38,938 bases of DNA. Source: Halomonas sp. (GTDB lineage: Bacteria > Pseudomonadota > Gammaproteobacteria > Pseudomonadales > Halomonadaceae). A model generated the notes under the pieces. It had not been told where the DNA came from and searched no databases. It saw only the letters and a list, made by a program, of their open reading frames with translations. The stretch covers positions 1 to 38,938 of the forward strand of contig JAIVHL010000129.1 of assembly GCA_020201075.1 (NCBI GenBank). The letters run 5' to 3'. Shown here piece by piece: positions 5,886-12,907 of this stretch; within the stretch, counting starts at the first letter, position 1, and the number at the start of each line of letters is the position of its first letter. The translations under genes were made by a program, and so were the position numbers.

Positions 5886-6515
5886 TCAGCCCTGTCCGCC
5901 CGCCAGCGCCCGCTCGGCCAGATGGGTAGGCTCAAGGGTTCGACGCGCCTGCCAATAGTGGCGCTGCCAGTAGCGGTTTTCGAGGCGAGATATCATCACC
6001 CCGCGGGAGCTGGAGGCATGCATGAAACGACCCCCACCCAGATAGATCCCCACATGGTTATAGCGGCCAGGCGGACGGAAGAAGACCAGATCACCGGGCG
6101 CTAGATCACCACGCGACACGGGGTGCCCTTGATTGACCTGCTCGCCGGTGGTGCGGGGCAGCGAGACCCGGAAGGTCTCCTCAAAAACATTCTGCACCAG
6201 CGCCGAACAATCCACCCCCTGGAAGGAGGTGCCGCCGATACGGTAGGGAGTACCTACCCAACGTTCATGCTGGGCCAGCAGGGCTTGCTGGATCAATGCG
6301 GGCGGAGGGTTGCCCAGGCTGCGCGCCTCGATGATGGGGTTGTCCACAGGAGACATTGCCCGCTCCCAGTCGCTGGACAACCCGGGCAGTTGGCGGGCGA
6401 AGTAGGCCTCATCTGCGTCGCGTGACGCGACATCGCGAGGGGAGGATGCACAGCCGGCCAGGAGCGCCAGCGACAAAATAACACCCAGTGAGCGGCACGA
6501 CGAAGTGACGTCCAT
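5886..6515 (-). CDS. NlpC/P60 family lipoprotein, probable murein endopeptidase (Spr/MepS-like)
   Basis: A 209-residue protein with an N-terminal signal peptide and lipobox LALLAGC, then a linker (~25-75) and an NlpC/P60 cysteine-peptidase domain. The catalytic cysteine is in GVDCSALVQNVF, the first catalytic histidine in YNHVGIYLGGGRF, and a further His in MHASSSRGV; PGDLVFFR is the usual strand before the histidine. Family members cut D,L-bonds in peptidoglycan cross-bridges or stem peptides. This one would act in the periplasm, anchored to a membrane. The exact bond is not predictable from the sequence. Confidence 0.9.
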   Translation of the reverse strand: MDVTSSCRSLGVILSLALLAGCASSPRDVASRDADEAYFARQLPGLSSDWERAMSPVDNPIIEARSLGNPPPALIQQALLAQHERWVGTPYRIGGTSFQGVDCSALVQNVFEETFRVSLPRTTGEQVNQGHPVSRGDLAPGDLVFFRPPGRYNHVGIYLGGGRFMHASSSRGVMISRLENRYWQRHYWQARRTLEPTHLAERALAGGQG

Positions 6516-6729: not shown

Positions 6730-9195
6730 TCAGTGCAGGGTGCGCGAGTCCCCCGGCAGAGTGTCGATATGCATCGGCGCCCAGTGGCGGGGACGTGCCC
6801 CGGGAAACTCCAGACTCGCCCAAGGGCCCACCAGGGGGGGAGCGGCGGTCAGCCAAGCGATCAGCGCCTGGCGAAAGCCAGCAAGAAAGCTCTCTCTCTC
6901 CGGCGTCTCGCCCATAAAGAAGGAAAAGCCGGCGTGAAGCCCTCGGGCATAGGCTTCCCACCCCGAGTAGTGGGCAGCTGCCAGGTCGTGGGCGCGCTCC
7001 AGCACCGCTACGAAAGCGCCTTCCTCCAGCCAGCCAAGCTGGCGAGCAGCGATGGCCAGGTCCACCACCTGAGCAACGTCCCAAGCGGCCATATCTGTCT
7101 CATTGCAGGCGTCTTCGTTGTCTCGCACCCGCTGCAGGCGCAGCAGGTGGGTGCGCTCCTCATCGCGGCACTCGCCGGACTCCAGGGTGGCGATCTCGGA
7201 ATCAAGCCGGGCAACGTTCAGGGTGTAGGGCGCATAGTTGATCAGGTACTCCTGCCGGTCGCCGGACTCGAGCAGAAACTCTAAGAACTCCCCCAGTTCC
7301 TCGGCTTCCTGAAGTCCGTAGTGGCCGTCGATCCATTCGCGAATCGACACGCACTCGCGCTCGCTCTCCCGGTGGGGCAGGCTCCAGGCCGGGCTGTTGA
7401 GTGGCCCCACCAGCGCCATAGAAGTGAAAACGCTCAGGCTGGGCCGTGGGCCAGGTTCCTGCCATTCGCCAACACGCCAGTCGACCCAGTGGAGCAGACT
7501 GCCGGGGTCCTCCTGATGCCAGCGAATTTCCAAGGCCAGGGACGGCTGCTCCTCCTCGGGCAACAGTGTCTCCCAGCTTGCCCAGGCCTCCATCAGGCGA
7601 CGAGCGTCTGGATAGAAACGGCACAGGGAAGCACGCAGGGCATCGGCCAGAGACGTCAGTCCATGGGCATCAAAACCCTCGCTGTCCATGGCCATTTGCA
7701 GGTAAAAAGCGTACTTCTCGGCCATGTGAATGGTGGCCGCATGGCGACTGCCACGACGCAAACCATCGCGCTGGTCCAATCTCGCCGGATCGGCGTGGCC
7801 AAAGGAGGTCTCCACTGGCGGGAGGGCACCATGGGCGGCATCGGCCGCTAGTTGGTTGAGGTGGTGCGCCTGGGCCGGCAGCCAGTAGCGAGAGAGCGCC
7901 TCGATCCCCTCGTCAGGGTGCAGATCAAGGGTCTCGGCCAGGTACTCGCGGGCATCATCGCGCCGCGCTGCTGACACCTGCTCAACGGGACCCTGCCGTG
8001 CGGCCAGCTCGGGCTCACGCACCGCGGCCAGCGCCAGCACCCAGTGCCGAGGATCGGACCGCCAGGACCGTATGGCTTGCCGGGAACGCTCCAACAGGTC
8101 ATGCCCCACCAGCCCCTGCAGCGCAGGCCGCCATGGGCTTATAGGCGACTGCCGCAGGAGGCGCCAGTCGGCCTCGAAGGCGGGTAACAGATTGCGTCCC
8201 TCGAAGAGACTTCTACCGCGCTGATAGGCCCGGGCCAGAGCCGACCAATCGCTGTAGCGATGCAACACCAGATCGGCGCCATGCAGGGCAAAGTCGGTGG
8301 CTTCGCGGCCGCTAAGCCAGCCAAGGCAGGCGCCCGCCCAGGCCAGATCCACCAGCCTCAGCCAGTCCCAGGCAGCCCACTCAAGCGGCTCGCCATGCTC
8401 GACAAGCTCGAGCAGCACCCGGCCATAGCGCTGCTCGCCTTGATCGAGCTTGTTGAGCCAGGCATAGCGGCTTGCCGGGTCGCTCCCAAGCAGCCGCGTC
8501 GCGTCCAGATCCCACCCCTGGCGATCCCCCTGGGCTCCCAGCCACAGCAGAACGCGAAGCAGATCGTCGCGCCCTCGGATCTGCCAATCATCGGCCAGCC
8601 AATCCGTGAGGCTAGACCAGTCCTGCTCATCAGCGGGCACCACCATCACTGGCGCGAAGCCGGCACGCAGTCGCCACACCTGGGCCTCTTCCTCAGCTGG
8701 CCACAGCGGCGGCAGATCATCGTGTATCGCCAGCCATTCACCCAGGCGCTCCCAGGTGATGCCGTGACCCTCATATTCGAGAGCCGCCAATGCTTCGCAG
8801 GCCGTGGAAAAACCGTCATCTCCATGTATCCAGCCATCGGCGCTGCGCGCTCTGCGTAGTGCCGCCAGCCAGGCGTCAAGATCGCTGTGATGAGCGCTGA
8901 TCTCGCCGGCCAGGCGATGAGCCCAGGCGCGGCTCGTGGTCTCGTCCAGCCAACCGGCGCCGCCGGCCAGTGCGACCAGTTCCAGGGCCGCCAGCAGGCG
9001 GGCCGGATCGGCCATACTTCCGCCCGCGCCAAAGGACTCCACCAGGCGCCAGCCAAGCTCGCCGCGATCCGCCACACCCAACGCTTGCAGGCGCACCAGG
9101 GCGGCCTGCGCCTCCACGCTCAGCGGGTCTGGGTCGAAGGCCCAATCACACAGCACCAGCTGCTGGGCCCACCAGGCATTCAGAGGATCGATCAA
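6730..9195 (-). CDS. Large protein with three diverged DUF1266-like repeats, function unknown
   Basis: An 821-residue, acidic, Trp-rich soluble protein with no signal peptide or membrane segment. It starts at TTG 9195, with GAGGTGAG just upstream. I recognise the DUF1266 pattern (AWDxxRxVxLAxxGxLxG...SWxxxxxAYxxGR) twice: AWDWLRLVDLAWAGACLGWL with YSDWSALARAYQRGRSLF (residues ~275-331), and AWDVAQVVDLAIAARQLGWL with YSGWEAYARGLHAGFSFF (~704-760). Each is preceded by the helical WLxxxWxIxxRDDLL-like unit (~193-215, ~618-640) and followed by a Pro-Trp tail (SPISPWRPALQ, PPLVGPWASLEF). A third, weaker copy occupies ~30-115. Residues ~370-600 are unassigned. DUF1266 proteins have no established function. 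Single-domain relatives include the YbeQ/YbeR/YbeU group in E. coli, as I recall. Confidence 0.85.
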   Translation of the reverse strand: MIDPLNAWWAQQLVLCDWAFDPDPLSVEAQAALVRLQALGVADRGELGWRLVESFGAGGSMADPARLLAALELVALAGGAGWLDETTSRAWAHRLAGEISAHHSDLDAWLAALRRARSADGWIHGDDGFSTACEALAALEYEGHGITWERLGEWLAIHDDLPPLWPAEEEAQVWRLRAGFAPVMVVPADEQDWSSLTDWLADDWQIRGRDDLLRVLLWLGAQGDRQGWDLDATRLLGSDPASRYAWLNKLDQGEQRYGRVLLELVEHGEPLEWAAWDWLRLVDLAWAGACLGWLSGREATDFALHGADLVLHRYSDWSALARAYQRGRSLFEGRNLLPAFEADWRLLRQSPISPWRPALQGLVGHDLLERSRQAIRSWRSDPRHWVLALAAVREPELAARQGPVEQVSAARRDDAREYLAETLDLHPDEGIEALSRYWLPAQAHHLNQLAADAAHGALPPVETSFGHADPARLDQRDGLRRGSRHAATIHMAEKYAFYLQMAMDSEGFDAHGLTSLADALRASLCRFYPDARRLMEAWASWETLLPEEEQPSLALEIRWHQEDPGSLLHWVDWRVGEWQEPGPRPSLSVFTSMALVGPLNSPAWSLPHRESERECVSIREWIDGHYGLQEAEELGEFLEFLLESGDRQEYLINYAPYTLNVARLDSEIATLESGECRDEERTHLLRLQRVRDNEDACNETDMAAWDVAQVVDLAIAARQLGWLEEGAFVAVLERAHDLAAAHYSGWEAYARGLHAGFSFFMGETPERESFLAGFRQALIAWLTAAPPLVGPWASLEFPGARPRHWAPMHIDTLPGDSRTLH

Positions 9196-9414
9196 GGCTC
9201 ACCTCGGCATCAGTCAGTAAGGCAGGGGGCGTAGGCAAATTCGGCATCATCTTTTCAGGCGCAACAGTGTAGCGGAAAGCAAGGCTGTCGCCGATGGGTC
9301 GAGCCTCTCCTTTTCGTTCGAATCCAACGCGTGTCGCTCACTGCCCAGGCTTGGCGAGACGTTTCAAATAATGCACACTGTGTAAAATATGACGACAATT
9401 CCCACGGAGATACC

Positions 9415-12207: not shown

Positions 12208-12240
12208 CCGCCCGGCCTTGTGCCGGGCGGTTCTCGTTTC
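12208..12240 (+). terminator. Terminator of gabDT
   Basis: A 10-bp perfect stem ACCGCCCGGC-CTTGT-GCCGGGCGGT is followed by TCTCGTTT. The T-tract is interrupted but the stem is very GC-rich. Confidence 0.8.
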
Positions 12241-12301
12241 GCCCCCTTGCCAGCACGTTACCAAGCCGGGAAGATGGCGGCGTCAACCGAGAGACAACCG
12301 C

Positions 12302-12907
12302 ATGATTCTGCGAACGCTTTCCCTGCTACGCTCCCTTCAAGGCGCGAGCCATACCGCCAAGGATGCCCAGGCCACCGTTCAGCAGGCCTGCGATTACCGC
12401 TGGCTGCGTGGCGAACTTCATCACGGCGCCGTCAGCGGACCGGCTACCGCCCTGGCCGACGGCACACCCGCGGTGACCATCACCCTGGCCTATCCCGCAA
12501 CCCGGGCCCGCCTTGCCGGCGGCCGCTGGCCCGAGGCCGTAGAGGAGCGCGAAAGATGCTTCGTGGAGGGTGCTCACGCCTGCCGGGCCGCCGGCGCTCC
12601 CGCCTACCGCACCCTGGAAAGCCTGTCTCAGGGGTTAGCCTTTGGTGCCGCGTCGATACTCAAGGATACCGCCCGCCTGCAGTACCTGATCGACCAGCAC
12701 GCCCTGCGCCTGACCTGGCACCAACCGCAACACCTGCCCGAGGCCCTGGCCCGACGATTGACGGCCGGCAATGCCGCCACCCCCGGCGTTTTCCTTCTCT
12801 CGCTGAAGGTACCTGCGCGGCGCGAAGAGGTGGAACTCAGCGGCGCCTGGCTGGATCGTGCGCTGGATCGCTACCGACGCATCCTGCCGCGCCATCCAGG
12901 GCATTGA
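12302..12907 (+). CDS. Hypothetical protein
   Basis: A 201-residue soluble protein with no recognisable motif. Codon third positions are strongly G/C as in its neighbours, whereas antisense frames here are broken, so the plus-strand reading is preferred. ATG 12302 follows GAGAGACAACCGC, a weak ribosome site. The track start at 12218 lies inside the gabT terminator and is rejected. The middle is Ala/Arg-rich (ATRARLAGGRWPEAVEERER) and the C-terminus has a basic patch (RRILPRHPGH). It is separated from gabT by a terminator, so it is probably its own unit. Function unknown. Confidence 0.65.
   Translation: MILRTLSLLRSLQGASHTAKDAQATVQQACDYRWLRGELHHGAVSGPATALADGTPAVTITLAYPATRARLAGGRWPEAVEERERCFVEGAHACRAAGAPAYRTLESLSQGLAFGAASILKDTARLQYLIDQHALRLTWHQPQHLPEALARRLTAGNAATPGVFLLSLKVPARREEVELSGAWLDRALDRYRRILPRHPGH

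Follow-up and report, generated by a model that had tools for sequence, protein, structure and literature searches.

What does a bacterium do with one large protein in which a domain of the DUF1266 family recurs several times? The question is raised by a gene of Halomonas sp. on contig JAIVHL010000129.1, within a window (the whole stretch of DNA that was analysed) of 38,938 nucleotides. A sequence-only reading of this DNA had placed a TTG-initiated open reading frame at positions 6730-9195 and had singled out its product, built from about three DUF1266-like units, as the best candidate in the window for an undescribed protein. The coordinates were confirmed exactly by the sequence and its translation into 821 amino acids, and the strand, which had not been given, is the minus strand, with the stop codon at 6732-6730. 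A search of the source draft genome found this as its sole DUF1266 gene.

Gene and translation start

The start of the gene (9193-9205, minus strand) is strongly conserved. The motif GAGGTG lies within 20 nt upstream of the start codon in 78 of 78 orthologues, at a spacing of 4 nt in 75 of them, and the TTG codon itself is kept in 77/78. TTG after GAGGT is also found in two more distant members (G131 and G037). Judged from these alignments, the conservation of TTG suggests that selection keeps initiation weak or under regulation. An Rfam search of the locus gave no matches.

In the protein, neither a signal peptide nor a membrane stretch could be recognised, the highest hydropathy over 19 residues being 1.46. 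Lysine accounts for only 2 of its 821 residues; this was considered and set aside, as the scarcity is shared by NlpC and other neighbours.

Table 1. Features of the locus, with the coordinates of the window and the residues of the protein.
Feature	Coordinates	Strand	Description	Basis
Whole gene	6730..9195	-	Four-unit DUF1266-like protein (very probable), 821 aa	ORF and translation; present in 264/275 Halomonadaceae genomes
Unit 1	8641..9195	-	Diverged DUF1266-like unit (residues 1-185), with its core helices at 64-119	hhalign and model helices
Unit 2	8110..8640	-	Residues 186-362; canonical DUF1266; core AWDWLRLVDLAWAG	Pfam PF06889, E 8e-17
Unit 3	7384..8109	-	Residues 363-604; degenerate unit with inserts; core helices 486-544	hhalign against unit 1; helix signature
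Unit 4	6841..7383	-	Residues 605-785; canonical DUF1266; core AWDVAQVVDLAIAA	Pfam PF06889, E 8e-19
C-terminal tail	6733..6840	-	Residues 786-821; conserved; ends in invariant His	Mostly low model confidence
Ribosome-binding site GAGGTG	9200..9205	-	4 nt before the TTG start	Sequence; in 78/78 orthologues
NlpC/P60 lipoprotein	5886..6515	-	Murein-endopeptidase-like; downstream neighbour	Pfam NLPC_P60, E 5.5e-32

Evidence for four tandem units

In Pfam, the whole protein matches DUF1266 (PF06889) over two stretches (E 4e-35; 121.9 bits, where the curated cut-off is 27) and no other domain. When the halves are searched separately, the N-terminal one gives a match at residues ~200-356 (E 8e-17) and the C-terminal one a match at ~625-796 (E 8e-19). 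These are the two clear cores that had been pointed out from the sequence; they fall in units 2 and 4, which match each other with an hhalign probability of 98.

A weaker N-terminal copy had also been proposed, and profile comparisons bear it out. Against a wider DUF1266 family profile containing 19 outside units, unit 1 scores 45.3 (E 9e-7), while the best of 150 column shuffles reaches 20.5 (0/150). Its scores against units 2 and 4 are 32 and 37, compared with 19 and 25 for the best of 100 column shuffles (0/100 in both cases). In a distant relative (G333), positions 84-141 of the Pfam DUF1266 profile touch unit 1, at a level below the cut-off (E 0.013).

The middle of the protein, about 230 residues, had been described as unassigned. 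This description does not hold, as a fourth, degenerate unit is found there. Residues 424-604 score 27.7 against the unit 1 profile, above the best of 150 shuffles (23.4; 0/150). Against the family profile alone, the score of unit 3 is marginal (17.3; 5/150 shuffles), although in a consistent register, and consequently its assignment rests on the match to unit 1 and on the helix spacing in the predicted model.

This AlphaFold model of the full protein, built from alignment A1, has a pLDDT of 85.8, a pTM of 0.83 and forty helices. A signature composed of a long helix, a 4-residue loop, an 18-residue helix, a 3-residue loop and another helix is found in it four times and no more. Its 18-residue helices begin at residues 85, 296, 510 and 725, that is, at spacings of 211, 214 and 215 residues. 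Four signatures never appeared in 100,000 random reorderings of the helices and loops, in a test that was designed post hoc, after the pattern had been seen. Modelled as a single unit, unit 2 reaches a pLDDT of 92.2.

Because the hhalign matches and the repeated helix signature point the same way, the protein very probably consists of four tandem DUF1266-like units of ~213 residues, with units 1 and 3 diverged and units 2 and 4 canonical in sequence. Thus, the multi-unit character that had been proposed stands, while the count rises from three to four. Neither of the two outcomes named beforehand as counting against it, a single DUF1266 match or a predicted structure lacking repeats, was obtained. 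The alternation of degenerate and canonical units possibly reflects a duplicated pair (units 1-2 and 3-4).

As for the fold, neither the full model nor the single-unit model matches any PDB fold at E <= 0.001, and a PDB sequence search with the 821-aa protein gave no match at E 10. The full model has no significant match in BFVD, a set of predicted viral proteins, and searches of NCBIfam, PHROGs and PADLOC with the protein gave none either.

Distribution and conservation

By a search with a profile of A1, which comprises 36 orthologues, 264 of 275 Halomonadaceae genomes encode the protein, usually as a single copy, and none of the 141 genomes sampled elsewhere in the order does. The gene is chromosomal, and the plasmid and phage collections gave no match. 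DUF1266 itself is uncommon, occurring in 9/369 genomes sampled from the class and 20/399 from the phylum, counts in which Halomonadaceae members are included. Approximately 80 orthologues, with identities of 58-92%, span the whole length of the protein throughout the family and keep the unit layout, a point that had been proposed for checking; unit 1 alone has been worn down or lost in a few genera, as in G037, G150 and G352. In one genus (g99; L198, L199 and L200), the gabT and NlpC genes are adjacent and the gene between them is gone, with no detectable remnant. This clean loss between conserved flanks indicates that the gene is dispensable there.

Conservation is unevenly spread along the protein. 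Across 44 members, four of them at ~30% identity, there are 137 near-invariant positions: 10 of the 185 residues of unit 1, 30/177 in unit 2, 48/242 in unit 3, 40/181 in unit 4 and 9/36 in the tail. With most of these positions falling in units 2-4 and the tail, and unit 1 worn down or lost in some members, the functional core is probably formed by units 2-4, as far as sequence comparison can tell. Invariant polar residues are found in unit 3 and at its junction with unit 4 (R436, H444, H445, E493, K494, H560, D563, D646 and R647).

The 36 residues of the tail are conserved, yet the pLDDT is 25-40 over most of them. The C-terminal residue is His in 78/78 orthologues and in 8/8 distant members, and the final pair (6733-6738, minus strand) is LH in 76/78 and 8/8, respectively. 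Conserved, for the most part of low model confidence and closed by an invariant His, the tail resembles a binding peptide.

Neighbourhood of the gene

The flanking genes had been called unrelated, which is largely correct, but one neighbour recurs, the NlpC/P60 lipoprotein gene. In most orthologous loci this gene lies just downstream and in the same direction, including loci at 45-53% protein identity where the other neighbours have changed. Upstream, gabD/gabT diverge from the gene in many loci, and the neighbours also include MFS. NlpC/P60 was considered as an obligate partner and rejected, since either gene can be found alone: in four genomes the four-unit protein lacks this neighbour, and in g99 and g111 NlpC/P60 is present while the protein is missing. 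As the pairing is not obligatory, the adjacency is read as conserved synteny.

Other features of these loci may be mentioned. Downstream of gabT, a 229-aa ORF (12218-12907, plus strand) has no NCBIfam match and is found by BLAST in 26/78 orthologous loci. In two distant genera (g110 and g102; L146 and L147), the gene is near a DUF488 gene and a carbon-nitrogen hydrolase gene; the DUF488 assignment is a Pfam match in L147 and only a similar-looking start in L146.

Possible functions

The best explanation of these observations as a whole, put forward tentatively and at a little short of an even chance, is a four-unit cytoplasmic helical protein that acts as a non-enzymatic scaffold or adaptor. 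The repeated helical units, the lack of an enzyme signature, the altered family polar positions and the conserved flexible tail are what lead to it. In such a mechanism, the all-helical tandem repeat would hold partner proteins on a surface formed by units 2-4 and the conserved C-terminal tail, and unit 1 would be an accessory element, given up in some lineages. The scaffold or adaptor function, taken by itself, is possible rather than probable; the sequence-only reading had already suggested it, and it is now the leading and a plausible reading, drawn from the helical repeats and the conserved tail. A fuller version is doubtful, namely, a near-core scaffold specific to Halomonadaceae, with repeated duplication of DUF1266, a fold without a solved relative, alternating units, a docking tail and a conserved TTG that limits abundance.

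The chief rival to the scaffold reading is an enzyme site, or a small-ligand-binding site, that has gone unrecognised in units 3 and 4. Here, the two units would form one active site from their invariant polar residues while the others are structural, and the density of such residues at ~30% identity, including the HH, MAEKYAF and GDRQ motifs, speaks for it. Nevertheless, no enzyme family or fold was matched, and polar positions that are canonical in DUF1266 have disappeared or been altered in units 2 and 4. Outside units share WD..R, the Arg of 'LAR' and W...G. In units 2/4, D277/D706, W317/W746 and G327/G756 are kept. The Arg of WDxxR is kept in unit 2 (R280) and is Gln in all unit-4 sequences, and the 'LAR' Arg, the best conserved in the family and present in 95% of the 19 outside units, is absent, with W286 in unit 2 and I715 in unit 4, which are also the commonest residues of the orthologues at this position. 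The absence of the 'LAR' Arg and the change to Gln in unit 4 argue against a shared catalytic site. By residue comparison, the polar working site of single-domain DUF1266 proteins, if there is any, is not intact in the Halomonadaceae protein. A catalytic or ligand-binding role is, in consideration of both sides, rather unlikely.

Neighbouring genes are the source of two further proposals. One of them, that the protein is an accessory or client of chaperones, as the DUF1266 genes of E. coli might be, draws on ybeR and ybeU, each of which overlaps a gene for a J-domain co-chaperone (djlB and djlC) next to the Hsp70 gene hscC, and on 3 loci, out of 12 others examined, where a DUF1266 gene is accompanied by a DjlB/C-like J-protein and HscC (in one of the three, L187, a separate search placed the DUF1266 gene, which the context scan did not recover). 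In nine Halomonadaceae genomes, however, the best matches of the HscC query are only 36-38% identical and lie in DnaK-sized frames of 648-677 aa, and the DjlC query has no match; by these searches, neither an HscC-like nor a DjlC-like protein is present in the nine. The DUF1266-J-domain-HscC module of YbeU type, with its adjacent J-domain and HscC genes, is absent from the Halomonadaceae locus, and no chaperone gene was recognised beside it, which leaves a chaperone role with a small share of the likelihood. The other proposal is a role in the cell envelope jointly with the NlpC/P60 lipoprotein. In most loci the two lie side by side and point the same way, even at 45-53% identity with other neighbours changed; against this, the protein looks cytoplasmic while its neighbour is a predicted exported lipoprotein, either gene is found alone in some genomes, and synteny alone accounts for most of the pairing. 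A joint envelope role is improbable. Finally, large lineage-specific proteins of unknown function often belong to defence, toxin immunity or mobile elements. A near-universal distribution in Halomonadaceae disfavours such an origin here, as do the absence from plasmid and phage collections, the lack of a PADLOC or PHROG match and the housekeeping neighbours, and the idea can be given hardly any credence.

The protein is of interest beyond its own locus. In a searchable library of the literature, DUF1266 is named only in gene tables, with no functional treatment, and PF06889 is uncited; together with the lack of a similar PDB fold, this agrees with the suggestion that the protein is undescribed. 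For a family with no function in the literature searched and no similar solved structure, a four-copy protein that is confidently modelled, found nearly family-wide and amenable to deletion, tagging and crystallisation offers a good way in. Halomonas is a genus of the family used in biotechnology, and the protein is in nearly every species of the family, with the natural loss in one genus suggesting that a deletion would be tolerable.

Comparison with known systems

Helical-repeat scaffolds such as Sel1/TPR and HEAT/armadillo proteins are, like this protein, all-helical tandem repeats with a presumed binding surface. They differ in that their repeats are 30-45 residues long, compared with ~213 here, and no significant structural match to the PDB was found for the present protein.

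Among DUF1266 proteins, E. coli YbeU and YbeR (single-unit PF06889) share with units 2 and 4 the above-cut-off domain and the WD and W...G positions, and their open frames of 236-246 aa are about the size of one unit. By contrast, the Halomonadaceae protein has four tandem units, two of them degenerate, lacks the 'LAR' Arg in units 2 and 4 and has no J-domain/HscC neighbours. A recurrent module (L185, L186, L187 and L184), in which DUF1266 genes accompany HscC genes and J-domain genes of the DjlB/C type, may prove central to explaining what DUF1266 does.

DUF1266 proteins had been described as usually single-domain, and outside Halomonadaceae most matches are indeed single-unit. Proteins of 327-384 aa (L121, L122 and L166) carry one DUF1266 unit, at the C-terminus, behind a non-DUF1266 part, which looked hydrophobic in those inspected by eye; no segment of this kind is present in the Halomonadaceae protein. 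The exceptions to the single-unit rule are two-unit proteins, 484-485 aa long and from another family of the same order (L191:4488-5942, minus strand; L170; L174), of which that in L191 begins with a hydrophobic segment. Those of G095 and G899 resemble the present protein in having tandem DUF1266 units, ~220 residues apart, and differ from it in having two units only and a hydrophobic N-terminal segment (by eye in G899) and in not being orthologous. Thus, a multi-unit architecture as such is not unique to Halomonadaceae.
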